Origin: Gallionella sp.
GTDB taxonomy: Bacteria > Pseudomonadota > Gammaproteobacteria > Burkholderiales > Gallionellaceae
Reading direction: 5' to 3'
Assembly: GCA_028710525.1 (NCBI GenBank)
Contig: JAQTTY010000003.1
Span: forward strand, 124,001-188,000
Length of the DNA: 64,000 nucleotides
Shown here one piece after another: positions 22,431 to 39,400 of this stretch; the stretch's first letter is position 1, and each line of letters opens with the position of its first letter. A model generated the notes under the pieces. That model was not told the origin of the DNA. It saw only the letters and a program-made list of their open reading frames with translations, and did no database searches. Position numbers and translations under genes: made by a program.

Positions 22431-22439
22431 GGCCGGTTC
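22415..22439. terminator. hairpin between convergent acetyltransferase genes
   Basis: GAACCG-A-CCT pairs with AGG-C-CGGTTC (one mismatch) around the loop CACTA. It spans the stop codon of the AlgJ-like gene and lies just beyond the end of the AlgX-like gene. No T-tract follows on either strand, so it may be a weak two-way terminator or a 3'-end stabiliser. Confidence 0.45.
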
Positions 22440-22450
22440 AGTCGTACCTA

Positions 22451-23842: not shown

Positions 23843-23879
23843 CCTCTTCTCCTGTTAATTGATAACGTGCTGTATGCGC

Positions 23880-24554
23880 CTATCTACCTGTGTATCGTTC
23901 TACTTTGTTCTGCACCACGTATGCCTTCAATCCATCATGTGGAGCAGGTAGTAACATGATGCTGTAAGTACCTCCCGGCGCCATATCTAGGGACATAGTG
24001 GCCAAACTAAGCGCCTCTTGGAATGCTCCCAACTTGATCTTGATTGGATTAACGGTGATAGTGCGCATCGCCCCTGGCACCAGTGCTTTGAAAACACTAA
24101 CCTTGCCGTCGGCGCTGCGTATATCCAATCCAGCCATCCCCTGCGCAAGCGGATAAACAGCTAGTACTGCCTTGAGCTTGTTGGCATTAGCGTGATCTTC
24201 GAACAATTGTGGCGCAACCTTTGCATCTTCTGAGGTAAATGCAACCGTCATGGCGCGACCAGCGATTACATCCAATGTCGCGGTATATTTTGGCTCATGG
24301 TGATCCGCCGTTGAGAGTATGAGGGTGTGCTTGCCGGCGGGTATTACCATATAGTCACTAGGCATGCCTTGTTCAATTCGAGATCCACGTGCCTTACCAT
24401 CGACTTGTACATTCATAGCCTCTCGCGATGATACTGCGATGACGCGCACATAAGCCGAATCCGTTGGTGGTTCGGGATCATAAAGCAACCCCTGCGCATA
24501 AGCTGAGCCCATCAATATGCAGAACAAAATCCCAGCACCGAATACTCTTTGCAT
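23880..24554 (-). CDS. AlgF/WssG-like periplasmic acetylation protein
   Basis: 224 residues from the ATG at 24554, which has AGGGGA upstream; an earlier in-frame opening at 24662 would overlap the previous gene and bury the signal peptide. MQRVFGAGILFCILMGSAYAQ is a clear signal sequence. The mature start LLYDPEPPTDSAYVRVI matches the AlgF pattern (short tag, then an SxxVRV strand), and two beta-sandwich-like halves follow. AlgF is needed for alginate O-acetylation and is thought to bridge the acetyl donor and the transferases. The stop is 37 bases before the AlgX-like start. Confidence 0.8.
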   Translation of the reverse strand: MQRVFGAGILFCILMGSAYAQGLLYDPEPPTDSAYVRVIAVSSREAMNVQVDGKARGSRIEQGMPSDYMVIPAGKHTLILSTADHHEPKYTATLDVIAGRAMTVAFTSEDAKVAPQLFEDHANANKLKAVLAVYPLAQGMAGLDIRSADGKVSVFKALVPGAMRTITVNPIKIKLGAFQEALSLATMSLDMAPGGTYSIMLLPAPHDGLKAYVVQNKVERYTGR

Positions 24555-24580
24555 CGTTATCCCCTGAAATAAAAAAGTGA

Positions 24581-26707
24581 TTATTTTGCTACCGAACCAA
24601 ACTGCAGGAACCAATGGTGAGTCCCTGGAGCCAACTGATTTAACTCTATATCCGTGCGCCACACGTCTCGGCGGACCACGACTGGATAGGATTGCTCTGT
24701 ATCATCTTGGAGCAATCGCATACTCGCATTCGGACGAGGCAGATTGACCATTACCGTTACAGGTTGCTGCAATGGCTGTGCTCCCTCCACAACCACGGTC
24801 AACATGGCCGGCGTGACCGAACTATCAAGACTCACACTCACGCGCGCACGTTCTTGCCACCAGTCCACAACCTCTATACCACTCGCCACCCACATAGATT
24901 TATCGAACTGCTTCAGTTTTGCCCCAAACTGCGCCCATTGCTTGTCATCCATCATACTGTCGCCAGGTATACGCAAGACATTCAGCCCCCCCATACGCTC
25001 TGAAAGCGAGAGTTCGGCCAGAAAATCCTTGAAATCCAGACCTTCACCAAGCACATCATCAGGACCATTCTGGGTGCGTGGGAGAATCAACAACCCCGCT
25101 GTTACAGCATCACCCGCATAACTGGGCAAACGCGACTCAGAGGAACTGGAATCTCCAATCAGATAGCGAAAACCATTTTCCTGCAGCATCTTGATAGTCG
25201 TGGGATCATAACTTTCCATCGGCGCATGAAAACCCTTACATGCAATGCTGAAGCCAGCAGCGTCCATCTCACCCATCATCTGCTTAACTCGTTTTTTTTG
25301 TACTCGAGTGCTCTGACCACCAAAACCATCGAAGCTGTCTCCCATGCAGCCCAGCTCATGTCCACGTGCCAACAGGATTTGCATTTGACTCTTTATATCA
25401 GTCACTTGCTGAGATAAAACATAATAACTGACGTGTCCAGAGAGACTCTCTGCAAGATCTGCATAACGGTATTCGGTGTCGCCCCATTGAGTGGATTCAT
25501 CTAGCGCTATGACCATTGCACTGCGATGATGTGCTGGCCAAGTTCCCAGATACGCAGCAGGTCTTCGCTCCAGCCAAGTGAGTGCATCCAGCGCAATCGC
25601 ATCCATTGCAACTGGATCAGCGGCAAACCAAGTACGCTCGGGATAACCCAACACTACGACTCGCGAAGAGAGACCATTTGCCTGCATGCGCTCGTTATAA
25701 CTAATGACGCTGTTCGCTTTTTCAGCATGCACACTGCGTGACCAATCCATTATGGCCGCAGCAGAATTTACTCCTGCCAAACGCAATGGATACCATCCTG
25801 CAGCGCGTGGTGTCCAGACCCTCAGACCCGCCGCAAGGTGATGCGTTACGGGACTATCACCGTAAGGAATGAGATAGACATCGTCCTCATCGTCACTAGT
25901 ATCTCCTACTACGGCAGTGTTGAGATTACCCGCCATGAAATCAAAGCCCGTCCACTCGCCCAAAGCACCGCGCACCCCGCTCAACCATGTTGCCAGTACC
26001 GAACCTCCGCGCTTGCGATAATCTGCAAGTGCATCTCGCTCTTCTGCATTTAGTGCAACCGCAGAAGGCAATATCAAAACTCCTGCTGGACGATGGTAAC
26101 GCAGTACATCCATGTCTTTAACAACCTCGTACTCTATCCCATGACGCGCCATGAATTCCTGCCAGACCGACAAGCTGAGCTGATAGTCCACACCTAATAC
26201 CGCAAAGTGCGCGAACGTCGTAGGAGACGAATACAACGTTACTTTCAATGCAGGCGCGGCTTGTACCCGACCTAAGGTTTGCCGCTCTACGTTTGTATTG
26301 CTCAGGCTGAGTAGCGCTAACTCAGCGCCCGCCACACTATCCATCGCACGCGATGCTGGCACAGCGGCGACCTGAGCACGCATAGTCTTGAAAATGCCGG
26401 GCGGCAGGATAGATCCTGGGGGGAGGCTGCCGTCTTTGGCACTATCAAACAGCCAATGGCTTTGTACGTCAGGTGCTGCAGTTTCTGCTGGCTTGGTTGC
26501 GGCTTGCTGAGCGCCTTCCTTACGCTGCACATGGGCCGCCGGCACGCTAAGCAAGACTGGCACGGCAGTGGGTTGCACGGATGGTGCGGACGATGGCGCA
26601 GGCGCTTTAGTTTGAGTAACAGAGGTACAAGCTTGCAGTAGAGACAGACTCAACACTAGCAACAGGTAGCTGGTAAACTTTAGTGCGAATCTGAGCGAAT
26701 CTGGCAT
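24581..26707 (-). CDS. lipoprotein with GATase-like domain and degenerate NodB (polysaccharide deacetylase) domain
   Basis: 708 residues from the ATG at 26707, chosen because AAGGAA lies five bases upstream; it also gives a clean lipoprotein signal with lipobox LQAC (Cys27). Layout: Pro/Ala-rich linker, a domain (~150-385) with LILPSAVALNAEER and GGSVLATWLSG resembling glutamine-amidotransferase-like folds, then a NodB-like domain (~395-560) and a beta-rich tail. The NodB motifs are eroded: ALDEST replaces TFDD (near 403), GCMGDSFDG has no HxxxH zinc ligands (near 455), and FHAP replaces FRAP. It is a paralog of the protein at 32096-33994, which keeps these residues. Probably a non-catalytic binding or scaffold protein; first gene before the AlgF-like and AlgX-like genes. 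Confidence 0.82.
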   Translation of the reverse strand: MPDSLRFALKFTSYLLLVLSLSLLQACTSVTQTKAPAPSSAPSVQPTAVPVLLSVPAAHVQRKEGAQQAATKPAETAAPDVQSHWLFDSAKDGSLPPGSILPPGIFKTMRAQVAAVPASRAMDSVAGAELALLSLSNTNVERQTLGRVQAAPALKVTLYSSPTTFAHFAVLGVDYQLSLSVWQEFMARHGIEYEVVKDMDVLRYHRPAGVLILPSAVALNAEERDALADYRKRGGSVLATWLSGVRGALGEWTGFDFMAGNLNTAVVGDTSDDEDDVYLIPYGDSPVTHHLAAGLRVWTPRAAGWYPLRLAGVNSAAAIMDWSRSVHAEKANSVISYNERMQANGLSSRVVVLGYPERTWFAADPVAMDAIALDALTWLERRPAAYLGTWPAHHRSAMVIALDESTQWGDTEYRYADLAESLSGHVSYYVLSQQVTDIKSQMQILLARGHELGCMGDSFDGFGGQSTRVQKKRVKQMMGEMDAAGFSIACKGFHAPMESYDPTTIKMLQENGFRYLIGDSSSSESRLPSYAGDAVTAGLLILPRTQNGPDDVLGEGLDFKDFLAELSLSERMGGLNVLRIPGDSMMDDKQWAQFGAKLKQFDKSMWVASGIEVVDWWQERARVSVSLDSSVTPAMLTVVVEGAQPLQQPVTVMVNLPRPNASMRLLQDDTEQSYPVVVRRDVWRTDIELNQLAPGTHHWFLQFGSVAK

Positions 26708-26823
26708 GGTATTCCTTGAATTCATGGACATAGCTGCATACTTTCCATCGCCGAACAACCGGACAAAAGCTTTGTGTAGCTAGTAATTAAAAATGCTAAT
26801 TATGAGGGGTTATTTAGGTTTAA

Positions 26824-26914: not shown

Positions 26915-28831
26915 ATGCAAAAACCAAATATAGACAAGGTCTGCGCCAGACTGAACATATCAGAATTGCCCAGCTTGACGGACAGCATGTCCAAAGGTGG
27001 CATGTATGCACTTATCACAGAGACGCCCCCTACCCGCTTTCCTATACTAGCCAGTTGCTTACATGCCGCCCTGCAAGATGGTCTGCCCTGCACTATCATC
27101 CTGCCCGAACAAGCGGCGAACTTTCTGGAGCGACTTGAATCCTTCGGTCAATTGAATACCAGTTACGCAATCAGCGATGGTACCTTGCAAGTCCTGCTCT
27201 GCCAAAACGACTTTACCAAGAAAATGTTTCGCTTCGGCGCGGACACTTTTGCCAAAGAGCTAGATCATTTCGACACTCGTCCTAACGGCTTGCTGATCTT
27301 TGACAAAGCTGACGATCTATTCAGTTTGCATGACATTTCGCTGGCGCTGACACAGGCCGACACCCTTGCCGACTGGTGCGCCGAGCGCAACGTCACCGCT
27401 TTGCTTTGTTTCTCGCACCTATCCAGTGCCGCAGCCGGTACGCTGCAATCCTTGATGGACAAACTATCGGGCATGGTCCATCTGGATGGTGACCGTGACG
27501 GCTTGGGGCTGTCCTTCGATTACTGGCAATCGCCGGAAGGCACTATCGCAGCAAAGCATTACCCGCTGACGCCAGAAGTGTCCGGATTATACAAAGCCAT
27601 ACGTTTGATAGAGCAGACCAACCCTGGGTTTGACATTCCCGCTCAGCCACCGCTGGGCGAACAGAAGTTCTATTACATGGATGCCCAGCTAGACAGCATG
27701 TATAAGCAACTGCCTGGAGATTGGCAATTCGTCGACTCGATGGTCAGCGTGGTCTATGCCACTCGCGGCAACCCGCTCGCCACCGTGGTACTTAGTTACG
27801 ATAAGACCACCAATCTGCGCGAACTAGCCGAGACCGTGCACACACTCAGACTAGGTCTAGGTAAGCGCGCCTGTATCGTGGTACATGAAAAAGCTTCTTC
27901 ACTGCGCTACCAGAACGAGGCGCTGTTGTTGCGCTTGGGCGTCAATCTGGTGATTCATCGTGATGTTGCCACCGGTCGATTGCCACTCTTGCTGGAATCG
28001 GTCAAAGGCCAAGTATTTGAACGCAATATGGAAGTGAATTTCGAAGCGGCACTGGCCAGCGTTTTTCCTTCCTCCTTGCGCGGCTACCAACCACCCGCCC
28101 GCTTCACCAAAGAAATTCATAACATCTTGGTGCGCAGCGAGCGCATCAATATCCCTAGCACCTTGTTGATAGGTGTGCCCGTGAACGGCACTGATATCGG
28201 CGAGCTATTGTCTGGCATCGTGCTGAGTCGCGCCGGTGACTTGAGCTGCAGTGATGGTGAATACTGTTACCTATTCCTAAATGGCTGCCCCGAGTCCGCC
28301 ATCTTGGTGACGATAGAGCGTTTGTTGGGTATGGATATCGATGCGGTGTTCCAGAGCCACCGCTTCGTCACCCGTAAACATGATATCCAAGCTGAACTGG
28401 ATGCGCTGAACCGAACCGCAACCGTCAGAGAGTTGCCCGACTACAGCGAACACTTCCGTAGTGCGAAACCTGAAAGCAGCTTAACAACTGAGACTACTCC
28501 ACGCCCTGAGATTCAGACTGCACTTATTGACACCGTGCCAACCTCTACAGCTCAACCAGAAACACCAGGCCCGATATCAGAACCCCAAGCTGCGCCACGC
28601 TTGTTTGCACAGAGCCCGCTCATCAAGACTGCTAGTATCGCTCCCAAGGTTGCTGCTCGCGTAGTTGAAGTTCCGCAAGTGTCGAAACAAGATGGGGTCG
28701 TAGAGATTCCCTCCGCCCCCAATGCCACTTTTGCACGTAATCATCCTTCCGGTCATATCGTGTTTGGCAAAGAGCCTGTTCCGCGTGCCAAGCGCAGCAT
28801 AGATAAGCCACATCACAACAAATCCAGATGA
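26915..28831 (+). CDS. bcsE: cellulose-synthesis c-di-GMP receptor BcsE
   Basis: 638 residues, soluble. N-terminal and middle parts resemble the degenerate receiver/ATPase-like region of BcsE. A GIL domain (~385-500) contains the c-di-GMP motif SRAGDLSCSDGEYCYLFL, in which R439-A-G-D442 matches the RxGD binding site. The tail (~530-638) is a Pro/Thr-rich linker ending in a basic stretch. In enterobacteria BcsE binds c-di-GMP and the BcsR-BcsQ pair and boosts cellulose output at the membrane. Here it is not in the bcs operon but heads a plus-strand operon of another synthase, overlapping the next gene by ATGA. The N-terminus is more divergent than the GIL part. Confidence 0.82.
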   Translation: MQKPNIDKVCARLNISELPSLTDSMSKGGMYALITETPPTRFPILASCLHAALQDGLPCTIILPEQAANFLERLESFGQLNTSYAISDGTLQVLLCQNDFTKKMFRFGADTFAKELDHFDTRPNGLLIFDKADDLFSLHDISLALTQADTLADWCAERNVTALLCFSHLSSAAAGTLQSLMDKLSGMVHLDGDRDGLGLSFDYWQSPEGTIAAKHYPLTPEVSGLYKAIRLIEQTNPGFDIPAQPPLGEQKFYYMDAQLDSMYKQLPGDWQFVDSMVSVVYATRGNPLATVVLSYDKTTNLRELAETVHTLRLGLGKRACIVVHEKASSLRYQNEALLLRLGVNLVIHRDVATGRLPLLLESVKGQVFERNMEVNFEAALASVFPSSLRGYQPPARFTKEIHNILVRSERINIPSTLLIGVPVNGTDIGELLSGIVLSRAGDLSCSDGEYCYLFLNGCPESAILVTIERLLGMDIDAVFQSHRFVTRKHDIQAELDALNRTATVRELPDYSEHFRSAKPESSLTTETTPRPEIQTALIDTVPTSTAQPETPGPISEPQAAPRLFAQSPLIKTASIAPKVAARVVEVPQVSKQDGVVEIPSAPNATFARNHPSGHIVFGKEPVPRAKRSIDKPHHNKSR

Positions 28832-30546
28832 GGCTGACATCCCCAAAATCCCCAGTCGATATGCCATCCAGACTGCAGAAAGTGCTGTTCCACATCAGCA
28901 CCGATTTACCTGCCGTTGCATTGTGTTTATTGCTGTCACAGGTATACGTAGCTCAAGCGGCTCAAACAACCACCACAGACACAAGTAATGTGCAGCAGCT
29001 CTACGAGGCGCAAAACTATAAAGAAGCCGCCAAAATTGGACTGGAAAAATTATTGAGCGAACCCTGGAACCATGAGCTGCGGTTCTTGGTTGCAGACAGT
29101 CTGCAACGTCAGGGAAAATTCGAAGAAGCGGCAATACAGTTTGAGGCACTAGAGGGCACACCGTACGCCGAACGTGCCATGATCAGACTCAATGCCATAC
29201 GCACTAACACTCCACCTACTGAGCCGATAATATTGAGTAGCGTCGAAGCGAATACTCCCGCGCAGCCAACCGAACCCCAAGTGCCCGCCACAGTGATAGC
29301 ACCTTCCAATAACCGTGGTCTTGCTTACACGCTGTTACCTGCGGCTGAAACTCCCCCTGTCCACAACCCCGCCCTGCAGCACCTCTATGACCTCAACGCG
29401 GCCGGTGACTATCAGGCTTTAGGCAGCCGGGGAATGAGCAGTTTTGCGCACACTAGTCCTGATGACCAGACACGTCTGATGGTCGCGAACAGCCTGGCTT
29501 GGACTGGACGTCCCAAACAAGCTGAGGCCCAGTACAAATTGATAGGCCCAGGCCGCTACAAGAGCGATGCCGATATCGGTTTAGCCAATCTGTACCGTTG
29601 GCGTGGCCGCGATGACTTGTCCTTACCGCTCTATCAAAATGTGTTGCGCGAAAATCCGAAAAACGAAGCTGCGCTTGAGGGTTTGACACTGGCCAAACGC
29701 GAACTGCAACCGCGCACCATGATCAGTTTTAGTGGGTCTTCCGATTCAGGGGGGGAGACGCGCCATCCCGGACTAATCAACCATCGCTGGCGGGATACCA
29801 GCGGCACGAATCTATTTGAGCTTGAAGGTGGATTCATCGCGTCTCATCAAAATTTGGCACGCACTAACCAAGGTGATCTGACCGCTCGTTACCAGTCGAT
29901 GACATTACCCTTTCATCCCAAGTTCGAACTGGCACAACAAGTGCAGCCTGCCAAGCATCTGTTTGGAAAAGTTGGCGTGAGTTTCGCTGACAACGAAATT
30001 GCGCTAGAGGCCGGTCGTGACAACTGGGGTAAAACTGCGGCAACCACACCAGCACTGATATACGGACTGGGGGCTAATCATCTAGGTGCCAGCGCGAACC
30101 ATGTCTTCGATTTTGGGCAAATACTGGCTGCGGCCGACTTCTATTCCATCTCAGACGGTAACTCTATCCGTACCACTAAGCTTGATTACAAACCTGCATG
30201 GACACCTTTAGGTGCCCATATCAAACCATACCTAGGTATGGAGACGCGCGACGCCAAGAGCAACACTCTGTTGTACTGGTCTCCTGCCATAGGCTTTGGT
30301 ACCGCCTATGCAGGGCTTCAAGCCGAATGGGGGAAAGAGTCATGGAGTCTGTTTGGCAGTGGGCAATTGGGTACACATCTGTATGGCGAAGCCGGCACCA
30401 GCTGGAGCATCTCTGGCGGCGGAAAGTACTGGCTGACGCGTGACATCGCAATCAATCTTAATCTGTGGAAGATGCAGAGCTGGCGTAACAACTCCACCTA
30501 CAGGGCAAAATCTTTCAATCTGGGCCTGGAAAAACTTTGGGACTGA
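28828..30546 (+). CDS. TPR and beta-barrel outer-membrane export protein (PgaA/BcsC-like role)
   Basis: 572 residues. A hydrophobic signal stretch near 27-45 ends AQAA|QTT. TPR-type helices follow (~50-115 and ~185-290, e.g. YEAQNYKEAAKIG and ANLYRWRGRDDLSLPLYQ). From ~295 to the end (WD) alternating strands of an outer-membrane barrel are seen, with a C-terminal Trp-Asp. PgaA and BcsC combine TPRs and a barrel in the same order, but PgaA is ~800 residues, so this is a short version. The ATG overlaps the bcsE stop (ATGA). An internal ATG at 28861 is a possible alternative start. Likely guides the product of the next gene's synthase through the outer membrane. Confidence 0.78.
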   Translation: MRLTSPKSPVDMPSRLQKVLFHISTDLPAVALCLLLSQVYVAQAAQTTTTDTSNVQQLYEAQNYKEAAKIGLEKLLSEPWNHELRFLVADSLQRQGKFEEAAIQFEALEGTPYAERAMIRLNAIRTNTPPTEPIILSSVEANTPAQPTEPQVPATVIAPSNNRGLAYTLLPAAETPPVHNPALQHLYDLNAAGDYQALGSRGMSSFAHTSPDDQTRLMVANSLAWTGRPKQAEAQYKLIGPGRYKSDADIGLANLYRWRGRDDLSLPLYQNVLRENPKNEAALEGLTLAKRELQPRTMISFSGSSDSGGETRHPGLINHRWRDTSGTNLFELEGGFIASHQNLARTNQGDLTARYQSMTLPFHPKFELAQQVQPAKHLFGKVGVSFADNEIALEAGRDNWGKTAATTPALIYGLGANHLGASANHVFDFGQILAAADFYSISDGNSIRTTKLDYKPAWTPLGAHIKPYLGMETRDAKSNTLLYWSPAIGFGTAYAGLQAEWGKESWSLFGSGQLGTHLYGEAGTSWSISGGGKYWLTRDIAINLNLWKMQSWRNNSTYRAKSFNLGLEKLWD

Positions 30547-31895
30547 ACGAATTCAAGCGCTATCTCACTGCCGCACTGGTGCTGGGCGGCATACTTGTAT
30601 TGGGTGCTTATGGCTTCTATAAGGTGCGTCAGTATGACTTGGCCTCTTTCAGCATCATCCTTGAAAGCACCATCCTCACAGCGATCTCCATCTATCTGCT
30701 GATTTTCCTTACGCTGCTGATCATCCGTTATGCAGTATTGATCATGTATTCCTTTATGGAGCATCTGGAATATCTGGTCAAACGCAACGAAGAATCTCAT
30801 GCCGATCCGATCTCGGATGCAGCGCTGCCTATGATTACCTTGGTGGTGCCCGCGTACAACGAAGGTATGGTGATTCAAGCTGCAGTACGCTCTTTGCTGC
30901 TATTGGACTATCCCAATTATGAAGTGTTGGTGATAGATGATGGCTCATCGGACGACACCTACGAGAAGTCACTGGCTGTGGCGCGCGAAGATCACGATGT
31001 GCCCATACGCGTCATTACCAAACCCAACGGCGGGAAAGCCGATGCGCTCAATACCGGTATGACCCATGCGCGCGGAGAGTTCATCCTGAATATGGATGGG
31101 GATACTAAGTTGTCGCGCAACACCCTGCGAGCCTGCATACGCCATTTCGATAATCCCAGCATTGGCGCAGTGGCGGGAAACGTCAAAGTACTGAACCGCG
31201 ACAATATCTGGACCAAGCTGCAAGCACTGGAATATGTCGAGGGCTTGGCAATGGCACGCAAGGCACAAAGCTTCATGCGCGCGGTGAACATCATCCCTGG
31301 TCCTTTGGGCATGTTCCGCAAGACCGTACTACAACAAGCAGGCGGCTATGACCACGATACTTTCGCTGAGGATTGCGACCTGACGCTCAAATTGCTGATG
31401 CGCGGTTGGCATATCGCCTATGAACCCACCGCGATCGCTTGGGTGGAGACCCCCAGTCGTTTGTTGGACCTACTCAAACAGCGCTATCGCTGGACGCGCG
31501 GCATCTTGCAGGCAACACGCAAGCATCGCTCTGCCATGTGGAACCCGCGTAAGGCCGGTATCAACTTCTTCATCTTGTGGTACATGTTGTTCGAGGGCAT
31601 CTTGTGGCCGTTCTCAACTGTATTGGGCAATCTATTTTTCGTCTATATTGGTTTGAAATACGGCGTGGTGATCTTCCTATTTTATTGGTGGTTGCAACTC
31701 ACCATTTTGGATATCGTCGCGGCTTCTTACTGCGTCATCGTAGAGGAGGAATCACCCTCGCTGATCATGTACTCGGTAGGGTTCAGACTGTTTTACATTA
31801 CAATAATCGACATCTCCAAAGTCTTTGCCACCATAGAAGAATGGCGAGGCACCACGATGACTTGGGGAAAATTACAGCGTGAAGGAAAACTCTAA
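30537..31895 (+). CDS. family 2 processive glycosyltransferase, PgaC-like
   Basis: 452 residues from a TTG (30537) that overlaps the previous gene by ten bases; no nearby ATG would keep the first TM helix. Two N-terminal TM helices (~9-30 and ~45-70), a GT-A domain (~98-330) and three or four C-terminal helices. Catalytic residues of processive GT2 enzymes are complete: DDGS (134-137), DGD (187-189), GPLG, the base in AEDCD (278-279) and QRYRW (315-319). There is no PilZ domain, unlike BcsA. Size and topology match PgaC/NodC-type synthases that polymerise N-acetylglucosamine. The sugar is inferred from the family and the deacetylase neighbour, not proven. Confidence 0.88.
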   Translation: MGLNEFKRYLTAALVLGGILVLGAYGFYKVRQYDLASFSIILESTILTAISIYLLIFLTLLIIRYAVLIMYSFMEHLEYLVKRNEESHADPISDAALPMITLVVPAYNEGMVIQAAVRSLLLLDYPNYEVLVIDDGSSDDTYEKSLAVAREDHDVPIRVITKPNGGKADALNTGMTHARGEFILNMDGDTKLSRNTLRACIRHFDNPSIGAVAGNVKVLNRDNIWTKLQALEYVEGLAMARKAQSFMRAVNIIPGPLGMFRKTVLQQAGGYDHDTFAEDCDLTLKLLMRGWHIAYEPTAIAWVETPSRLLDLLKQRYRWTRGILQATRKHRSAMWNPRKAGINFFILWYMLFEGILWPFSTVLGNLFFVYIGLKYGVVIFLFYWWLQLTILDIVAASYCVIVEEESPSLIMYSVGFRLFYITIIDISKVFATIEEWRGTTMTWGKLQREGKL

Positions 31896-32096
31896 ATGGA
31901 TCTGATCTCCATACTTGCAACCGTGATCCTGATCACCACCATAGGTACGCTGGTAGTCGGTGTCGCCGCCTACGCCGCATTTAAATTGCGCGACAAACGC
32001 CGCCCAAAGAAGAAGGACCCGACCGCCAACCAGAACCAGTTCGACAACCCGATCTTCCTGAAACGTTACGATCCTAAAGCAGACCAAGAGGCCTAA
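31896..32096 (+). CDS. small one-helix membrane protein, possible PgaD-like synthase partner
   Basis: 66 residues. One TM helix (~5-28) is followed by a strongly basic patch (KLRDKRRPKKK) and an acidic/polar tail. I do not recognise the family. The ATG follows directly on the TAA of the glycosyltransferase, GGA lies eight bases upstream, and its own stop overlaps the next start (TAATG). In pga operons the small membrane protein PgaD follows PgaC and the two together sense c-di-GMP. Position and topology suggest a similar partner role, although PgaD is larger with two helices. Confidence 0.75.
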   Translation: MDLISILATVILITTIGTLVVGVAAYAAFKLRDKRRPKKKDPTANQNQFDNPIFLKRYDPKADQEA

Positions 32097-33994
32097 TGGC
32101 AATCAGTCTCTACACCTCATTACGTATGCCAAATCGCGAATTCAACATCAATGAGAAACCCCCACTTTATGCAAGAGTGGGTTTATACCTGCCCCTGCTG
32201 ATCATCATCGGCCTATCCATCACCATCCTTTCATTCGTTGCATCTATGAAGGTATTAGGATGGCAAGTACCTAGTTTCTTTGGTGGCAACAGTGCCCTGT
32301 CTACCCTGTCCCGCCCTAGCGTGAAAAACAGCGATATCGCAATCTATTCTTCCCCCAACACGGACCGTTACTTCAGCGAGATTGGCGGCAACTACCAGCG
32401 CCTGACCAATCCTTGGCGTGGCTATTTCAAAGACCGAAAACTTGATGTAAGCGAACTAAACACGATCGAGTCCTTGCATGATTACGACGGTGGAATCCTC
32501 ATCCTGCCCTCAGCAGTTGCGCTCAGCGATGATGAAAGGTCAGCAATATTGAAGTTCCAAAGTCAGGGCGGCTCTGTCTTGGCGACTTGGGCGACCGGCA
32601 CACGCGACCAGAAGAGCGAATGGCTAGGCTGGGATTTCTTAGCCAAGCTGGGTGCAAAGTCTTGGGGAGAAATGCCAGCCGACTCGGAGGCACACTATCT
32701 GGTCTTGGATGGTGAATCTCCTTTGTCCTACACCCATGCCGCGGGCATGCGTATCTGGATGGGCAAGACTGCAGAACACCCATTATTACTGTCAGGCGAA
32801 AAGCTAGCTGGACGTGTGATGGATTGGGCGCGTATCCCCGTCATCGAACAGGCTGGCCAAGGCGCTATCGTCTACTCTAATGGAGCTTCCAACGGCGGTC
32901 GCTGTGCGGTGTATTCCTTTGCCGAATCCTCTTGGGAATCACAACCCCAACCTATCTACACTTTGGTCGATGACACCCTGAGTTGGCTAGCACATCGTCC
33001 TGCCATCGTCAGATCAGCCTGGCCTAATGGCAAGCGCGCCGCGGAAGTCGTCGAGATGGATACCGAGGATGGTTTCCCCAATGCCTTACGCTTCGCCTCT
33101 ATGATGTCTTCCGTGGGCTACAAAGGCAGCTTCTTTATTCTGACCTCGGTTGCAAAACTCTATCCCGATGTTTTGTATACCTTAGCCAAAGACTTCGATC
33201 TCGGCTATCACGGCGATATACATATCAGCTTCAAGGATCAGCCAGAGGCCCAGCAGGCTCAGCGTATCGACACCATGATTGCGGACATGCATGCCCTATT
33301 ACCCGAACAATCGCTACTGACTGGTTTCCGTGCCCCGACCGAGGGCTATGACAAAACTACCGCAAAGTTGCTACAGGCCAGAGGCATACGCTTTCACGTG
33401 GCCGACCCAAACAGCACAGAAGCACGTCTACCCTTCTTCGACAAAATTGAAGGTGTAGACAATGCTGACACCATTGTGATTCTGCCGCGTACTCAACGGG
33501 ACGATATCAATCTGGCTAATCAAGAACTGAGTGTAGAGCAAACCGCCCAAGCGCTGATAGAAGATCTGCGTTACACCATGGATATGGGTGCTTTAGGACT
33601 ACTCAGCGTGCATAGTCAGAACTACAGTGACGGTGCCAATCTGACTAAGGCAATGCCTACCTTTTTGACAGAACTGAAAAAGCATAAAGACAAACTGTGG
33701 CTCGCCTCCGGTTCCGAGGTTTCGCAATGGTGGCGCGAGCGCGATAGGCTCAAAGTGTCTTCCGAGATACTGGGCAAGCGTATGGAGTTCGACGTCACGA
33801 TACAAGGCGAAAAACCTTTCGATGGAGCAAGCCTGACACTGATGCTGCCGCAAAAAGGAATGACCGAAAATATCCAAGGCATCAAGACCGGTATGCCCGA
33901 TGTCAAAGTCGTGCGTATCGATGACTATAGGGTATCAGTACAGTTCGACAGGCTTGAGCCTGGCAACTACGCTTATCAAGTGACCTTCGAGTAA
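32096..33994 (+). CDS. membrane-anchored GATase-like/NodB polysaccharide deacetylase
   Basis: 632 residues. One TM (~29-50) anchors a periplasmic part with a domain (~75-300) carrying LILPSAVALSDDER and GGSVLATWATG, and a NodB domain (~308-470). NodB motifs look usable: MDTEDG (322-326) for TFDD, the zinc pair in YHGDIH (H372, H376) and FRAP (411-414). The last ~90 residues are beta-rich. It probably removes N-acetyl groups from the exported polymer, as PgaB does. A good ribosome site (AAGAGG) and TAATG overlap couple it to the small membrane protein. It is homologous over nearly its whole length to the lipoprotein at 24581-26707. Confidence 0.86.
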   Translation: MAISLYTSLRMPNREFNINEKPPLYARVGLYLPLLIIIGLSITILSFVASMKVLGWQVPSFFGGNSALSTLSRPSVKNSDIAIYSSPNTDRYFSEIGGNYQRLTNPWRGYFKDRKLDVSELNTIESLHDYDGGILILPSAVALSDDERSAILKFQSQGGSVLATWATGTRDQKSEWLGWDFLAKLGAKSWGEMPADSEAHYLVLDGESPLSYTHAAGMRIWMGKTAEHPLLLSGEKLAGRVMDWARIPVIEQAGQGAIVYSNGASNGGRCAVYSFAESSWESQPQPIYTLVDDTLSWLAHRPAIVRSAWPNGKRAAEVVEMDTEDGFPNALRFASMMSSVGYKGSFFILTSVAKLYPDVLYTLAKDFDLGYHGDIHISFKDQPEAQQAQRIDTMIADMHALLPEQSLLTGFRAPTEGYDKTTAKLLQARGIRFHVADPNSTEARLPFFDKIEGVDNADTIVILPRTQRDDINLANQELSVEQTAQALIEDLRYTMDMGALGLLSVHSQNYSDGANLTKAMPTFLTELKKHKDKLWLASGSEVSQWWRERDRLKVSSEILGKRMEFDVTIQGEKPFDGASLTLMLPQKGMTENIQGIKTGMPDVKVVRIDDYRVSVQFDRLEPGNYAYQVTFE

Positions 33995-34122: not shown

Positions 34123-35193
34123 TTACCTAGCCTTAGCATGCTCTTTCAAATGGTTGCGTACCAACGCCCCCTGATCGTAACCCAGCGCGAAGAATGCCAA
34201 GCCTCTTAAGCCCTGTGCTGCTATGAATTCACTCTTTTTGCGTAAGGAATATCCATCCTCGAACCAGCCCACATACCAGACGTTGTTTTTTTGGTAGGTG
34301 TAGTAAGAGGAAGCACTGACAGCATCATAGACATAGCCATAGTGATCTAAACGATCTCGTATGCTGTTACCGTCTCCTTCATCTGTTGCGGCCGAGTAGT
34401 ACAGCACACGGCCCCCCCCTATGGTCTTGGATTTTGGCTGTGATGATTGCACTGGCCATTCATAACCGTACAAAGGAAAACTCATCACCACCTGCTCGCG
34501 CTGAGCGCCCGCATCCAAAACCTGCTGTAATGAGCTAGCCCAAGTCTCTCTTTCATCTCCCGCCAAAGGCGAGAGCGGGCCTGACTCATCCCCCCGTTGC
34601 CAATGTGAGTCATAGCCCTGCACTACTACATAATCAACTTGAGCCAGAGACTCTGAGTCATACAAAGCCGTGGCATCGCCCACGCTGTAAAACACCGTAA
34701 GTTTACGGGCTGGACTCATCTGATGCAGATGTGAGGAAAGTGTACTCAGAAACTGGCGATAAGCTGCTATCGTTTCTGGCTTGAGCGCATCGTATATCTC
34801 GAAGTCCAGCTGTATGCCCGCCACGCCCTCATCTGCCGCGATACGCTCTGTCTCAACTAGCAAACGCTTTACTGCGGCCGGCTTGTCGAAGACATTGCTC
34901 ACGATGTTGGCGTCGAAACAGCGCACAGTGACATCGATTGGTGTAAGGCTAGCGGCGCTGCGAAACTCACTCCAGTTTTCAGGCCAACCGTTACGCTCTG
35001 AGATATTACCCTGCTCGTCTATCGCCAACTCGAAGAACACCAAACGTTCGAAATCCTGCAGCGCAAGATCTCGCCAACCATCTGACATCCACGCTGCTAC
35101 ATAGCCCCAAGTTTTAAGTGGTTGTGCTTGCGCACTAAGCGTACCGCAGAGGAACAGTGCCGCGAGGAAAAGACGCAGCAAGCTACGCCTCAC
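34123..35193 (-). CDS. secreted GH18-family glycoside hydrolase-like protein
   Basis: 356 residues from a GTG (35193). Signal peptide ends SAQA|QPL (~24). The rest reads as one GH18 (chitinase-like) barrel: WGYVAAWMSDGW at the first strand, the active-site strand VAGIQLDFEIYD, VVQGYDSHW and MSFPLYGYEW. In the DxxDxDxE signature the last D and the catalytic E are kept, but the first two acids are A and Q, so activity is plausible but altered. GH18 enzymes cleave beta-1,4-GlcNAc polymers. That does not fit cellulose but would fit a product of the nearby PgaC-like synthase. Last gene of the bcs operon; overlaps the upstream ATPase gene by 11 bases. Confidence 0.8.
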   Translation of the reverse strand: MRRSLLRLFLAALFLCGTLSAQAQPLKTWGYVAAWMSDGWRDLALQDFERLVFFELAIDEQGNISERNGWPENWSEFRSAASLTPIDVTVRCFDANIVSNVFDKPAAVKRLLVETERIAADEGVAGIQLDFEIYDALKPETIAAYRQFLSTLSSHLHQMSPARKLTVFYSVGDATALYDSESLAQVDYVVVQGYDSHWQRGDESGPLSPLAGDERETWASSLQQVLDAGAQREQVVMSFPLYGYEWPVQSSQPKSKTIGGGRVLYYSAATDEGDGNSIRDRLDHYGYVYDAVSASSYYTYQKNNVWYVGWFEDGYSLRKKSEFIAAQGLRGLAFFALGYDQGALVRNHLKEHAKAR

Positions 35194-35932
35194 AATGTAT
35201 CAGTAGCCAATCGACGAGATCATTGATATCCAGACTAGCTTTGCCAGTTGGGTTGTATTGCAGCACAGGACGCTCATAGGCCAACGCTTCAGCCACTGAT
35301 GCATCTTTATGGATGGCGACTGGGACCATGATATGGGCATAGTTGTCGTATAGGGCTGCACGCACCTGCTGGCCCAAGACACTCTTCTCGGTCATCTGAT
35401 TGACCAACAGATTCAGACCGTTAAATTCACTACGGCCGCTGGTGTGCTCGGCTGTCAAAGACAATAGCTTGGGTATGGTGGTGAAAGATGCTGCATCCGC
35501 CAACACTACCGCAATAGCCTTCTGAGCTGCGTATAGCGCCTGTTTTAGAAAGACAGTCGCTCCAGGCGGCGTATCAATTAGCACGTAGTCTATTTGTTTT
35601 GGATCCAGCGCCATCAAGCCTTTGTGGATGAAGTTGGGATCGCTACGCAATACCGCTTCAAACTCGGCCAACTCGTCGTCGGCCACATTTCCGAAGGGGA
35701 TGAAGTTGACTCCAAATGGACTCTCGAATACAGACTCGGGAGAGATGCCCTCGCGCGCCAAGCCCGCGATCTCGTTGGGATCCAACCCCAAATGAATGGA
35801 TACGGCGTTCTGAGGGTCTAGGTCTATAACCAGCACGCGTTTGCGGTGCTGACCAAGTGCGATGGCCAAATTGGCCGTCACTGTGGTCTTACCGACGCCG
35901 CCTTTACCTGAGACTAGTGCTATTACCTGCAT
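35183..35932 (-). CDS. BcsQ/WssJ-like MinD-family ATPase (second copy)
   Basis: 249 residues. Deviant Walker A GKGGVGKTT near residues 9-17, Walker A' VIDLDPQN and a switch IDTPPGA mark the ParA/MinD superfamily. The pattern LDPQNAVSIHLGL and VLADAASFTTIP follow BcsQ (YhjQ). In cellulose systems this ATPase is placed with polar positioning or assembly of the synthase. A first copy lies at 46167-46931 in the same operon. The wss operon of Pseudomonas also has two MinD-like genes, wssA first and wssJ last, so this one matches the wssJ position. It follows the small TPR gene by 48 bases. Confidence 0.88.
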   Translation of the reverse strand: MQVIALVSGKGGVGKTTVTANLAIALGQHRKRVLVIDLDPQNAVSIHLGLDPNEIAGLAREGISPESVFESPFGVNFIPFGNVADDELAEFEAVLRSDPNFIHKGLMALDPKQIDYVLIDTPPGATVFLKQALYAAQKAIAVVLADAASFTTIPKLLSLTAEHTSGRSEFNGLNLLVNQMTEKSVLGQQVRAALYDNYAHIMVPVAIHKDASVAEALAYERPVLQYNPTGKASLDINDLVDWLLIHCEA

Positions 35933-35980: not shown

Positions 35981-36463
35981 TTAAGGATACACGCCCGGCA
36001 CATAGTGCAACTGTTTGATCATTCTCAGTTTGGGGCGAATCTCGATTGCAACTCTGGCCGCTGCGGCTGAACCCCATAACGGAGGCAGTTCGGCGAATTC
36101 ACGCGTCGGTTTGTGCCAGATAGGACTCACTTGTGCTGAATTACGCACGCCGTTGTCCTGACGCATCCAATCACGTAAGCGATTCATATTGTCACGTATA
36201 TCGGTGCGCTTAGGCGCAAGCTTTACAGCTCGCTGTAACAGATCCATAGCCGCCTGATAGTCACCCTGTGCCGCTTTGGCCACAGCCAAGTTGTTATGCG
36301 CAACCGGATCGAACGGGTTGAGGTCCACAGCTTGGCTATAACTACGCACCGCTGCGGCGTTATCACCTTCAGCTAGATAGGCGCGTCCATATTGCATGTT
36401 ATCGACTGCTTGTGCGTTACCCACAAGCAGCAAGGCAAGTATAGTCAGTACTAGGGACTTCAT
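35981..36463 (-). CDS. small periplasmic TPR protein of the cellulose operon
   Basis: 160 residues from the ATG at 36463. This ATG overlaps the bcsC stop (ATGA) and has AAGGGGG at good spacing; the ATG two codons earlier is too close to that site. Signal peptide MKSLVLTILALLLVGNAQA is cleaved before VDNM. Two or three TPRs follow (~22-100: AYLAEGDNAAAVRSYSQAV, AKAAQGDYQAAMDLLQRAV), then a non-repeat tail with PPLWGSAA. Function unknown; it may help BcsC or link it to peptidoglycan. Such TPR proteins are adaptors, so binding to a partner in the export channel is a fair inference. Confidence 0.72.
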   Translation of the reverse strand: MKSLVLTILALLLVGNAQAVDNMQYGRAYLAEGDNAAAVRSYSQAVDLNPFDPVAHNNLAVAKAAQGDYQAAMDLLQRAVKLAPKRTDIRDNMNRLRDWMRQDNGVRNSAQVSPIWHKPTREFAELPPLWGSAAAARVAIEIRPKLRMIKQLHYVPGVYP

Positions 36464-39400
36464 AGCCATCCCCCTTGAGCAATAGATCGCAACGGTTTGG
36501 GCGGGAAGCTCAAAGGCTGCGGTAAATGATCGAATGAATAACGTAGATAGGCCATCAAAGATTGCTGAGAATAGTTGCTGCTGTTATCCATCGCCAATTT
36601 GAAACCAACCGAAACTTGCGTCCCCACCGGCATCTCGGCACTGCCGAACAAACCATAGCCTAAACCGTTGACCGAACTACCCGCATACTGGGAAGCATAG
36701 CCGGGTAAGGCTGCAATCTGTGTCTGCCAAGCCAGTTGCATGGCAGGATCTCCGGGATAGTAGACGATGGGGTCCGCACGGAAAGCGCGCAAGCCTATAT
36801 CAGCACCCACCTGGTAGACCACATCTCCGTTGCGTCCGCTCAAATCGAATGGCACCCCCGCGCTGACATAACTTTGCGGACTGAAATATCCACCGTGCCC
36901 CAAAGTGAAATAGCTCAGGTTATGTCGATAACTCATAAAGGAGAAGTTCACGCCTACCGTCATCTCCATATCCGCCGTGCGGTAAGGTTTGGTATACGCG
37001 CCCGCCGACAACTCCAACTCATTATTGGTCATCACACCTGAACCCGTCAGCGCGGAGTAAGCAGCGCTAGCATATACACCTTTACCGTTCCGGTCATAAT
37101 CGGCCGAGACACCCAAACCTGTCTTGACCACCCCACCCCATGCCTTACCGGTGCGAGGATCGGTCGCACCTGCATAAGACAGTAAGCTGTCTGTGACGGC
37201 ACGGCGATCTACACCCACACGTACCCCCACTCCCGGACCGACCTTACTCGCCAGACTCAAGCCACCTACGAAGTCGGTGACCTTAAAACCCAAGGGAGTC
37301 GTACCCAGATCGACAGTCATATTGCCCTGTCTATAAGCACCGTTCAATGCGACGCCCGCAGCATTTTGAGCAGTCGCAGCAGTAGGTGCCGCGAGGAAAG
37401 GCCCCAGTCCGACCGAGCCGAAACGCACAGCATTCTGTGGTACGGCAGAATTCAAAGTGCCCGCACTCAATAGCACTGGGGTGGCGCGCAGGCTGAGCTG
37501 TGCACCGTGGTCCATAGGCATATCGTATTGCGCTGCCATCTCGATTTCAGAGAGTGTACTCAAGCCTGCTTCGCCGGTACGGTTACGAAATCCAGCACCC
37601 GCAAGGATGCTATCCGACGATGCAGATTGCATCGCAGCAATCTCGTCGCTCACTGTTGCTGCGCGTCGTGGTGTCGCGGGGACTTCTCCAAACTGTGGCG
37701 CCGGGGCACGTACAGGCGGATTTTCGGCATAAGCCAGCGCAACGGGGGCACGCTCGCTAGGCGCAGTTTCGGCGAATGCGGCGGGCAGTTCGCTACGTGC
37801 AGCGCGAGGTTGCACCGCGACTGAGCTGGCATCGGAATGTGGGCCAACACTGCGCGACATCTTGAGACTGTTACGGTCTAGTACATCGGGCACAGGCAGC
37901 AAATCATCGCGGCGTGGTGTCAGGTCAGCCGGCACAGGAAGCAGCTCAGGGCGTTCCTCCTGCGGAAACTCATCGACCAGTCGCAAAGATAGGCCACCGC
38001 TGGAACCATCGAACGCCGCTTCTTCACGCTCCAAAGCTTGGGCGTACTGGAAGTACTCCATCGCCTTGTCATAGTTGCCATTGGCCTTCTCGGCTCTGCC
38101 GGCGGCAGCCAATGCGCGAGGATGATTGGGCTGCAAGGCCAGTGCTAATTGTGCGTGTTGTAAGGCTTTGTCGTTCTGATTCACCGACAACGCCATGCTG
38201 GAGGCGAACAAGTGGTTGTCGAAATCATCCGAGTTACGTGCCAACACCTCTTCGGTAATACGCAAGGCCGTGTCAGGTTCATTACCCGTGTTGTACAAAC
38301 GAGCCAAAGCCATTTGTAGACGTGGGTCGTCGGAGCGCGCCAGCGCAGGCTGCAAGACTCGGTAGGCATCGGCAAGATGCCCCCCTTCACGTAGGCTGTC
38401 GGCCTGACGTATGGTGTAAGCAAGAATGATGTCGTTCAAATCTTTCTGTTGCGAGACGCTCAGACGCTCAGGTGCGGCGGAGAGCGCGCGTAGCAGCGCC
38501 CCCAGTTCCACATACTGTCTGCCATTCAACAATAGCCCAGCATATTGGATACGCGTGTCTATGCTGCTGTTCGGGTAACTTACCATTACCTTGCGCATCA
38601 CCCGCAATGCATCGTCACTCTGACCGATGTCCGACCAACCCGTGGCGGTGACCGCCAATAGCTCCTTATCATTGCCAGACTCGCGTTCCACAAGACGCAT
38701 GGTGTTCTGTGCGGCAGCCGCTTGTTTGGCCTCGAACAATTGTTGCGCACGTTGCGCTTGGGCATGTATCCAGAAGCGACGTTGCTCACGCTTAAGCGCA
38801 GGTGTACGCGACGCAGGTGGGATGCGTTCCAGCGTACGCAATCCCTCTGCCCAACCCTTCTGCTCTGCATAGAGCAAAGCACGAGCATGGATACCCTCGG
38901 GAAAATCAGGATAGGCATCGACCAGATTGTCTAGCAAGGCATTCGCCTCAGATGGGTAGCCCAACTTTTGATACTGTCTAGCCAAAGATAAACGTATCCA
39001 AGGATTGACAGGGTCGAGCAACAGCGCGTCTTCCAAACGACTGGCCGCGCTGCGATAGTCGTGATTCTTCTCATCTAACGTCGCCATCTGCACCAATACC
39101 GCGGATTTGATCTGTTCATTGCCTGCGCTCTGCAGCGCACTGGAGTGTTCATAGTCAGCCAGCATCGTGCGTGCCTCGCGCTCGCGACCCGTCTGGATCA
39201 ACAATGAAAGTAGGCCCGCAAAGGCATTCACTTCATTAGGCTTGCGGCGCAGCACGCCACGATACAAGGACTCGGCTTGATCATAGCGGCGCTGTTCGGA
39301 GAGCAGGTCGGCCAACATGACCGTCGCTGCTGGTTCGCTCGCATCGATGCGGCGAGCACTTTGCAGATCGCGCTCAGTCTCACCTATATCGCCTGCATCA

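Follow-up and report, generated by a model that had tools for sequence, protein, structure and literature searches.

The question raised by this locus is which synthase its BcsE serves. Two reports (PMC7439463; PMC11470070) present BcsE as a regulator of cellulose. In the window, i.e. the whole 64,000-nucleotide stretch of a Gallionella sp. contig analysed here, a bcsE gene heads an operon with a glycosyltransferase of another kind. The first-pass annotation had read positions 26915-33994 as a self-contained polymer synthase operon, and all of its open reading frames were found: five abutting or overlapping plus-strand genes encode BcsE, a TPR/barrel protein, a GT2 enzyme, a 66-residue protein (TM66) and a NodB-type deacetylase (Table 1). 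The answer that we regard as probable is that BcsE, with BcsQ2 and BcsP, is the c-di-GMP receptor of the GT2 synthase and helps in its assembly.

Table 1. Features of the window, with coordinates, strand and supporting evidence.
Feature	Coordinates	Strand	Remarks
O-acetylation module	19902..24662	both	MBOAT, AlgX-domain protein, AlgX, AlgF
MBOAT	19902..21287	+	PF03062 117.8 bits
AlgX-domain protein	21294..22430	+	PF16822, one of the two scores 256.3/192.9 bits
AlgX	22451..23842	-	PF16822, one of the two scores 256.3/192.9 bits
AlgF	23880..24662	-	PF11182 55.4 bits
Divergent NodB paralogue	24581..26758	-	PF01522 21 bits, below cut-off
bcsE	26915..28831	+	Predicted degenerate NTPase-REC-GGDEF c-di-GMP receptor, GT2-linked subfamily
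TPR + presumed outer-membrane barrel protein	28828..30546	+	4-base overlap with bcsE
GT2 processive synthase, PgaC/IcaA-like	30537..31895	+	TTG start; 10-base overlap with TPR/barrel gene
TM66, 66-aa single-TM protein, presumed GT2 partner	31896..32096	+	Abuts GT2 gene
Membrane-anchored NodB/CE4-type deacetylase	32096..33994	+	1-base overlap with TM66 gene
GH18 glycosidase	34123..35193	-	PF00704 81.6 bits; D130, E132 near-invariant in 22 sequences
bcsQ2, second BcsQ ATPase	35183..35932	-	TIGR03371 193.2 bits, cut-off 157.85
Small TPR protein of bcs operon	35981..36469	-	Pfam TPR
bcsC, cellulose export porin, intact	36460..40638	-	PF05420 330 bits
bcsZ (GH8)	40458..41612	-	PF01270 203 bits
bcsB	41630..43933	-	PF03170 705 bits
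bcsA	43930..46170	-	Catalytic and PilZ motifs intact; TIGR03030 882.7 bits
bcsQ1	46167..46931	-	PF06564 120.7 bits; TIGR03371 209.2 bits, above cut-off
bcsP/bcsR-like, BcsR-like N-terminus and longer tail	46928..47518	-	PF10945 54.7 bits, residues 5-44 of 196
bcsD	47550..48020	-	PF03500 58.5 bits

The catalytic residues claimed for the GT2 protein are all in place. It keeps DDG, DGD (DxD), ED and QRYRW (QxxRW), the motifs of a processive GT2 synthase, which are near-invariant in an alignment of 55 sequences, and it matches PF13641 with 120.6 bits in Pfam. The top NCBIfam profile is PgaC/IcaA (TIGR03937), about 100 bits above the next, with NodC at 105.7 and CelA at 79.4 bits; its score of 220.6 bits is below the equivalog cut-off of 422.3 and leaves the protein outside that family. 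This shortfall and the weak CelA match would fit a GT2 that makes glucan or another neutral polymer, the operon then being a second glucan pathway. We consider this unlikely in view of the lead of the PgaC/IcaA profile, the NodC score and the deacetylase and GH18 genes of related loci; the polymer would probably be based on N-acetylhexosamine.

The TPR/barrel protein matches TPR_14 in Pfam (25.7 bits, above cut-off) and no NCBIfam profile, neither PgaA nor BcsC; its position and sequence suggest a barrel, and we presume it to be the export porin of the GT2 system. Its 10-base overlap with the GT2 gene recurs in an Undibacterium locus (L017). The NodB protein is barely above the PF01522 cut-off (25.7 versus 23.1 bits), and its D322, H372, H376, R412 and H506 are near-invariant in 44 sequences. 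With no PgaA-type NCBIfam match for the barrel protein and only PF01522 in Pfam for the NodB protein, the genes do not qualify as a Pga operon. The TM66 family, aligned from 15 members spanning several phyla, has a conserved cytosolic tail, PIFLKRYDP. TM66 resembles BcsF in size and topology, which we retain as an analogy. Hhalign against E. coli BcsF returned a probability of 0.4%, and a PDB profile search gave chance-level matches only; sequences this short are hard to test, and TM66 was not taken to be a BcsF homologue.

The first gene product scored 249.1 bits against PF10995 (cut-off 25) over residues 11-515, which places it in the BcsE family. It aligns with the E. coli BcsE chains 9fnn, 6ybb and 6tj0 and is the sole PF10995 match in the 2.83-Mb genome. 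Both cellulose BcsE equivalogs of NCBIfam score it below cut-off (TIGR03369, 188.5 versus 244.65 bits; NF011619, 81.6 versus 929). Its I-site reads RAGD, an RxxD motif from which c-di-GMP binding is predicted, and RxGD is retained in 26 of the 29 genomes, this one included, in which the site of a GT2-linked BcsE is readable. The C-terminus carries a GKEPVPRAKR motif. The BcsERQ components are present as well, the genome encoding two BcsQ above the TIGR03371 cut-off and a PF10945 protein; the latter has 14 prolines within its last 151 residues.

Next to the operon lies a minus-strand run of bcs genes, which ends with the GH18 gene 128 bases away and has bcsA about 10 kb off. BcsA counts as a live synthase, with TIGR03030 above cut-off and every catalytic motif present. 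In Undibacterium, bcsQ2 also adjoins the GT2 operon, and bcsAB is absent from the 21-kb locus. Upstream, the NodB paralogue appears by motif comparison to have degenerate deacetylase motifs, and O-acetylation genes are repeatedly linked in relatives.

The intact cellulose synthase and the lack of another BcsE mean that dual or cellulose use is possible in this particular genome. BcsE might be shared, as a receptor made from the GT2 operon for both the cellulose and the GT2 complexes, a possibility that we take seriously without thinking it the probable one. It would suit the single BcsE and the adjacent, intact BcsA, BcsB, BcsC, BcsZ, BcsQ and BcsP-like proteins. In Noviherbaspirillum malthae, where a second bcs cluster is present and live, each cluster comes with its own BcsE, as expected if every scaffold needs one. 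Against sharing, BcsE remains with the GT2 genes and not with bcsAB when the two are separated. Sharing is compatible with, not opposed to, the GT2 assignment that we favor.

As the first-pass annotation had proposed, BcsE leads a PgaC-like GT2 operon, and the gene order is conserved. It lies directly upstream of the TPR/barrel and GT2 genes in 24 of 29 related loci and also in G010 and G591, including cases where bcs is distant (380 kb in Polynucleobacter, 51 kb in G010) or on another contig (Undibacterium G432-434, with two BcsQ at each of two loci). As this order is kept across genera, chance association is ruled out. Most related loci continue with a NodB-type deacetylase gene, and GH18 genes are common. 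The sole BcsE found in G451 and G452 sits in a cellulose cluster, and their GT2 contigs end before bcsE; in G447 and G440 BcsE is apart from the GT2 genes; and in G445, a 2.5-Mb MAG with GT2, no BcsE was found.

BcsE distances track those of GT2 (Spearman 0.93) and NodB (0.95; 12/14 genomes) more closely than those of BcsB (0.85), the gap between 0.93 and 0.85 being modest and the genes compared often linked. A BcsE tree parts GT2-linked from cellulose-linked proteins (92/78), where 7 of the 18 "GT2-linked" rows entered through a protein search, with no genomic context to go by. The cellulose-linked side is weak (58/42) and includes a row (L072) from a 6.6-kb contig on which no bcs gene was detected. 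The tree gives no indication of the order of origin.

The operon is not self-contained, contrary to the first-pass annotation: it nearly always occurs alongside bcsB (24 of 28 genomes, plus G000, G010 and G591) and bcsQ. The earlier proposal is therefore partly supported, the combination of BcsE and GT2 being right and its independence not. A restriction of BcsE to genomes with bcsQ/bcsP had been named beforehand as evidence against the combination, and we found nearly that. The exceptions are two MAGs, G457 (3.8 Mb, also without a BcsC barrel) and G450 (2.2 Mb), the only ones, and possibly incomplete, in which BcsE-GT2 was found without bcsB and without bcsQ or CelA above cut-off. The presence of bcsQ/bcsP need not mean cellulose, however, as they also accompany clusters in which BcsA is a pseudo-synthase.

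In 15 relatives, the "bcsA" of the cluster has lost TED, QxxRW and the PilZ DxSxxG motif. TED and QxxRW were absent from 14 of 14 dead rows and present in 26 of 26 live rows, DxD was retained in 5 dead proteins, and the fifteenth (G591) is alike; NFPxxx replaces DxSxxG in all of them. The thirteen dead rows included in the BcsA tree form one clade, and the window's intact BcsA is among the nearest live relatives. The dead protein (BcsA*) does not pass as a live synthase, and its predicted fold is still closest to BcsA in the PDB. Some of these proteins are named "cellulose synthase (UDP-forming)" in databases. The BcsC barrel was not found in many of these relatives.

It could be argued that the dead clusters are decaying pseudogenes without a role. 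Their GT core is changing fast, with 32% identity to the window where live BcsA has 75%, and of three proteins scanned with Pfam, two had no GT2 or PilZ domain and the third GT2 only. BcsE may be decaying in four genomes, being shortened and without RxGD in G444, G449 and G455 and split by a stop codon in G454. We nevertheless find this reading improbable. Long open frames persist in several genera (13 of the first 14, the other being cut by a contig end, and G591), codon-position differences follow 3 > 1 > 2 in 8 of 8 pairs tested, 55 columns are near-invariant, and the linked BcsB stays well conserved. Among the best 120 database matches there were 43 dead and 2 intermediate proteins, and NFP was present in 42 of the 43.

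These clusters also bear on the suggestion that BcsE is merely co-transcribed here and serves the cellulose complex only. This fits the cellulose operons from which BcsE is known (available parts of PMC7439463 and PMC11470070), the position near bcs genes of 12 of the 13 further BcsE loci in the order, the rarity of GT2 operons without bcsB and the damage to BcsE in the four genomes above. It fits poorly with lineages in which bcs is distant or BcsA dead. In 12 of 30 genomes BcsA is dead and there is no other CelA match above cut-off, yet the GT2 operon, bcsB, bcsQ and BcsE (PF10995 above cut-off) are kept; there, BcsE hardly serves cellulose. The sequenced part of BcsE is undamaged in 8 of these 12 and in G591, which was found via its dead BcsA alone, likewise lacks CelA above cut-off and also has the BcsE-GT2 operon. 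Together with G457, G450 and the distant operons described below, this makes an exclusive cellulose role quite unlikely and argues for BcsE as a partner of the GT2 synthase.

In Deltaproteobacteria and Cellvibrionales, a KaiC-REC-degenerate-GGDEF (GGDEF*) protein occupies the BcsE slot of GT2 operons. These leaders have an invariant RxxD and are remote homologues of BcsE by a full-length profile match. A profile of 19 GT2-linked BcsE, with broken or cut ones excluded (its "invariant" RxGD fails in three of those), matched only N-terminally with 5 leaders and over 426 columns with 54, with a match over 115 columns seen only when realignment was turned off. By itself, the REC part of BcsE gave no significant match to the leader REC; hence, the case for homology relies on the NTPase and GGDEF* parts and on collinearity over the full length. 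Foldseek lists BcsE as a leader match at low TM-scores (0.28-0.30); BcsE is not among the VIA-align rows, which are confined to the KaiC domain. Campylobacterota leaders L053 and L057 were rejected as BcsE homologues, with no significant profile match and only an RxxD-like string (RFGD, L053). The leaders share slot, domain order and RxxD with BcsE and differ by a recognizable Walker A, a clear REC domain (L048) and the lack of BcsQ above cut-off in the three leader genomes searched, of four. We found no description of such a leader in the literature searched, and no paper on dead BcsA or on BcsE with a PgaC-like operon in the open-licence literature, which mostly leaves out subscription papers and preprints.

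The E. coli type II Bcs system, as far as the available parts of PMC7439463 and PMC11470070 describe it, resembles the locus in the BcsE family, the RxxD site, the BcsQ and BcsR-like genes, and an operon with BcsE first and a short one-TM protein. It differs in that here a PgaC-like GT2 has its own presumed porin and deacetylase and a TM partner not detectably BcsF; many relatives have dead BcsA and no BcsC barrel found. With PgaABCD/IcaADBC of PNAG the locus shares the logic of porin, GT2, small membrane partner and deacetylase, and PgaC as top GT2 profile. It differs by lacking a PgaA match and a PgaC equivalog score, and by having a one-TM partner instead of PgaD and BcsE as predicted receptor; E. 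coli PgaC and PgaD themselves bind c-di-GMP (PMC8461298, available part). PelD, which PMC7439463 names as structurally closest to BcsE GGDEF*, likewise serves a synthase as a c-di-GMP receptor with a degenerate GGDEF domain; its architecture differs from that of BcsE.

The five genes would thus form a c-di-GMP-controlled, synthase-dependent polysaccharide machine, for which we infer the physical contacts, the sugar and the direction of control. The GT2 and its one-TM partner would build a polymer across the inner membrane from a nucleotide-sugar, for which UDP-N-acetylhexosamine is the likeliest candidate, NodB would trim acetyl groups and the TPR/barrel protein would export the chain. BcsE would bind c-di-GMP via RxGD and BcsQ2 would dock on its C-terminal tail, so that, with the BcsP/BcsD scaffold of the neighboring operon, the GT2 complex is assembled or activated; a contact of BcsE with GT2 or TM66 is a proposal. 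With BcsA and BcsC intact, one BcsE may serve both synthases in this genome, and in the sister lineage the other Bcs parts may persist as scaffold around a pseudo-enzyme, GT2 being the only recognized live polymerase of the set. More tentatively, and as a possibility short of probable, a cellulose complex may have been converted into a scaffold, in which GT2 does the chemistry, BcsE, BcsQ, BcsP/BcsD, BcsB and a dead, probably c-di-GMP-blind BcsA* form the frame, and BcsE is mostly the sole recognized c-di-GMP sensor. BcsE would then descend from a KaiC-REC-GGDEF leader of a GT2 operon, later recruited by cellulose, and the window would show the state before BcsA died.

If this is true, the pairing of BcsE with another synthase and the existence of Bcs complexes with a dead yet conserved synthase would make the Bcs frame modular and re-usable, nature would have set scaffolding by BcsA/B/Q/P apart from catalysis, and the odd NTPase-REC-GGDEF build of BcsE would have a testable origin. 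Also, calls of "cellulose producer" based solely on bcsA/bcsB may be wrong, as such genomes may make no cellulose.

The ORF coordinates confirm the five plus-strand genes that the first-pass annotation had placed in an operon running from bcsE to a NodB-type deacetylase gene. In a search of the window's genome, bcsE was found in a single copy. The best profile for the GT2, a PgaC-like processive synthase, was PgaC_IcaA at 220.6 bits, which is below the cut-off of 422.3; the lower-ranked profiles reached 118.7 (XrtG-type), 107.9, 105.7 (NodC) and 79.4 bits (CelA). Its DDG, DGD, ED and QRYRW motifs are all retained. Convergent with this operon, on the minus strand, lie bcsD-bcsP/R-bcsQ1-bcsA-bcsB-bcsZ-bcsC-small TPR-bcsQ2-GH18. 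The window is a cluster with one BcsE and two live synthases, i.e. synthases with intact catalytic motifs. Upstream of the GT2 operon are an AlgF/AlgX/MBOAT acetylation set and a divergent, apparently degenerate NodB paralogue. With its metal and catalytic motifs seemingly degraded, this paralogue would appear to be a second pseudo-enzyme of the cluster. Four long adjoining ORFs (863-967 aa) occupy the left end of the window (1886-12991, minus strand).

Genes of the GT2 operon and the neighbouring NodB paralogue in the window
Feature	Position	Strand	Remarks
bcsE	26915-28831	+	PF10995, 249.1 bits (cut-off 25)
TPR/barrel gene	28828-30546	+	
GT2	30537-31895	+	TTG start
TM66 (66-aa one-TM protein)	31896-32096	+	
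NodB-type deacetylase	32096-33994	+	
NodB paralogue	24581-26758	-	motifs look degraded: GCMGDSFD for GYHGDIH; LRIPGDS for LSVHSQN

A contig scan of genomes with the window's GT2 yielded 42 loci, 29 of them at an identity of at least 59% (L017-L044, L058). In 24 of these 29, bcsE, which is cut, short or split in some of them, stands directly 5' of the TPR/barrel gene. The remaining five comprise L036 and L037, which are truncated at contig ends and in whose genomes (G451, G452) the sole BcsE found sits in a cellulose cluster; L032 and L025, whose genomes hold a GT2-type BcsE at another place; and L030, in whose genome BcsE was not found. The combination of BcsE with a GT2 operon, as first annotated, is real and conserved. 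The description of the operon as self-contained does not stand, as only two MAGs, of unknown completeness, are without a detected bcs set; many of the genomes compared are MAGs. The operon also occurs in G010, a relative of the same genus. In a set of 399 genomes from the window's order, BcsE exceeded the cut-off in 14 and the GT2 was found at E <= 1e-60 only in the window's own genome; the 13 other BcsE loci have bcs genes nearby in 12 cases and this GT2 in none. As the operon is rare and scattered, its horizontal spread is likely.

BcsE travels with the GT2 rather than with bcsAB. In Polynucleobacter rarus, BcsE-GT2 and bcsB share a contig, at 1.243 and 0.862 Mb; a distance of 51 kb separates them in G010, and three Undibacterium species have them on different contigs. 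Undibacterium pigrum combines a live bcs set with BcsE-GT2. The Undibacterium GT2 loci have their own BcsQ1-type and BcsQ2-type genes, with a BcsR/P-like gene detected in two of the three, and the bcs locus holds a further pair of BcsQ; each genome (G432-G434; loci L017-L019, L103-L105) contains four BcsQ over the TIGR03371 cut-off, two per locus. Noviherbaspirillum malthae has two BcsE, one in each cluster. Over 14 genomes shared by the comparisons, the distances of BcsE correlated with those of GT2 (0.93), TPR/barrel (0.92) and NodB (0.95, 12 of the 14 genomes) versus 0.85 for BcsB; this gap is modest, and the genes are often linked.

In 13 more distant GT2 loci (L045-L057, 42-58% identity), BcsE was found neither at the loci nor in the genomes (0/13). 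A leader gene precedes the porin, GT2 and TM66 genes at L045, L048, L054 and, in two copies, at L046. Its product joins a KaiC-type ATPase to a REC domain, matched by Pfam in L048, and to a degenerate GGDEF domain at the C-terminus with an LRFED-type RxxD, R455 and D458 being invariant in 54 relatives. In L049 and L055, from Firestonebacteria and Elusimicrobia MAGs, the GT2 follows stand-alone KaiC genes, and in L049 an AAA gene as well. In hhalign comparisons, the 54 leaders matched 16 cellulose-type BcsE with P 1.1e-9 over 481 columns and 19 GT2-type BcsE with P 1.3e-5 over 426 columns; the scores were 54-86 versus at most 23 for 3 reversed and 24 shuffled nulls. By part, the similarity was strong in the NTPase, moderate in the degenerate GGDEF and without significance between the REC parts. 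KaiC was the top match of a leader model (pLDDT 90.3), with E. coli BcsE at ranks 9, 17, 23 and 25, the E-values being roughly 2e-14 to 5e-14 over 557-571 columns. The tree unites the GT2-linked BcsE in a single group (92/78), in which G457, G010 and Polynucleobacter, genomes with bcs undetected or apart, branch first. This homology and the branching order make it plausible, though not proven, that BcsE arose in the GT2 operon; a reverse transfer of BcsE is a conceivable alternative. The two leader genes of L046 (761-2455 and 2591-4138) form a tandem pair ahead of a single GT2 operon. In the leader alignment (A6, residues 28-35 of P0006), the Walker A of deltaproteobacterial leaders has arginine for lysine (GPSGSGRT; R34 in at least 90%), and that of the Cellvibrionales leader is GYSGTGKT.

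In many related genomes, the bcsA adjoining bcsB scores low against the window's bcsA. A motif table of 40 BcsA contains 26 live ones, including those of the window and E. coli, with DDG, DCD, TED and QxxRW, and 14 dead ones, all without TED, QxxRW, FFCGS and a full DDG. DxD remains in 5 and the PilZ RxxxR in 4 of the 14, and the PilZ DxSxxG has become NFPxxx in every one. The 13 complete dead BcsA form a single group (100/100; 200/200 bootstrap trees), which together with the window and G435 makes up a supported set (99/98), so that the intact BcsA of the window belongs to the closest live relatives of the dead ones. In mean identity to the window's BcsA, the dead proteins reach 32% in each of three parts, against live values of 75% (GT core), 35% (N-terminal membrane part) and 37% (PilZ). 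Codon-position differences follow the order 3 > 1 > 2 in eight dead bcsA pairs, a mark of selection still acting on the protein. The eight best PDB matches of an AlphaFold2 model of one dead BcsA (pLDDT 73.8; input alignment of 48 rows, 8 of them live) are BcsA chains; a Pfam scan of three dead BcsA found the GT2 domain in one and PilZ in none. A database search with one dead BcsA returned 212 proteins at E <= 1e-30. The best 120 of these comprise 43 dead (P0300 partial), 75 live and 2 that we count as intermediate although the R and W of QxxRW are missing; NFP is present in 42/43 dead versus 0/75 live proteins.

Among 30 genomes searched, TIGR03030 exceeded its cut-off in 14, and 12 (G436-439, 442-444, 446, 447, 449, 454, 455) had a dead BcsA without it; neither was found in four MAGs (G440, 445, 450, 457). 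G452 and G456 have a dead and a separate live BcsA, and G443 an additional 620-aa ORF matching CelA weakly, at 114 and 92 bits. The BcsC barrel (PF05420) occurs in 12/14 live genomes versus 1/13 dead-only genomes including G591 (Fisher p 7e-5), the exception being G436 at 105 bits. BcsB is kept in all dead-BcsA clusters and, as far as the contig extends, so are BcsD, BcsQ1 and BcsQ2, and usually BcsP/R and GH18.

An independent check was made in the family of G436, where a search of 399 genomes with a dead BcsA gave 44 matches at E <= 1e-30. Judged by their coordinates, the stops counted in this search fall upstream of the open frames. The GT-core match is continuous in G436, G447, G591 and G715; by motif, the BcsA of G591 is dead and that of G715 live. 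Four of the 44 genomes have the GT2 (G436, G447, G591, G441), i.e. 3/3 with dead BcsA versus 1/41 others (p 3e-4), or 2/2 versus 1/41 (p 0.003) without the search centre G436, where G715 and G441 among the 41 were motif-checked and the remainder taken as live from a split match pattern. G591, reached via the dead BcsA alone, carries bcsD-R-Q1-A-B-Q2-GH18 with this dead bcsA and, about 60 kb away on the same 4.9-Mb contig, AlgX-AlgX-AlgF-paralogue and BcsE-TPR/barrel-GT2-TM66-NodB.

According to two studies (PMC7439463, PMC11470070), E. coli BcsE binds c-di-GMP via R415xxD418, its tail lies along BcsQ, and BcsF draws it to the membrane; the latter (PMC11470070) describes betaproteobacterial BcsP as having a BcsR-like N-terminus and building BcsD scaffolds. 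RxGD is kept in 26 of the 29 genomes, the window's included, whose GT2-type BcsE is readable at the site. A C-terminal BcsE motif, G[KR]xx[AV]PRAxR, is present in the window and in 15/19 further genomes whose fetched loci include a BcsQ2-type gene (exceptions G440, 444, 448, 449), and in 0/6 genomes without one (G010, 441, 453, 457, 458, 472; the single BcsQ of G458 scores only 137); G455, with its second BcsQ just outside the fetched stretch and BcsE cut short, was left out of this count. The motif also occurs in G450 and L040, where BcsQ2 status is unread. This co-occurrence suggests that BcsQ2 may be the partner of the GT2-linked BcsE, with the tail motif as the predicted binding site.

Since the PilZ motifs are lost, BcsE appears, on motif evidence, to be the sole recognised c-di-GMP sensor remaining in most dead-BcsA clusters. 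A GT2-type BcsE is present in 14 dead-BcsA genomes (the 12 dead-only ones, G456 and G591), of which 11 keep RxGD, among them G454, whose bcsE is split by a stop. RxGD is lost together with part of the REC-GGDEF half in G444 (RLGE), G449 (SQGE) and the truncated BcsE of G455, which argues against its c-di-GMP sensing being strictly needed in this lineage. In these three genomes, with the shortened bcsE at L029, L034 and L041, a signal loss or change may be under way. With G454 included, damage to BcsE affects four of the dead-BcsA genomes. An intact BcsE is found in dead-BcsA-only species such as Noviherbaspirillum galbum or a Rhodoferax.

The pseudo-BcsA scaffold found in the window's relatives is the more surprising fact. 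Dead BcsA such as P0266, P0277, P0284 and P0292, among others, are named 'cellulose synthase (UDP-forming)' or 'glycosyltransferase' in the database, and such names probably give rise to false predictions of cellulose.
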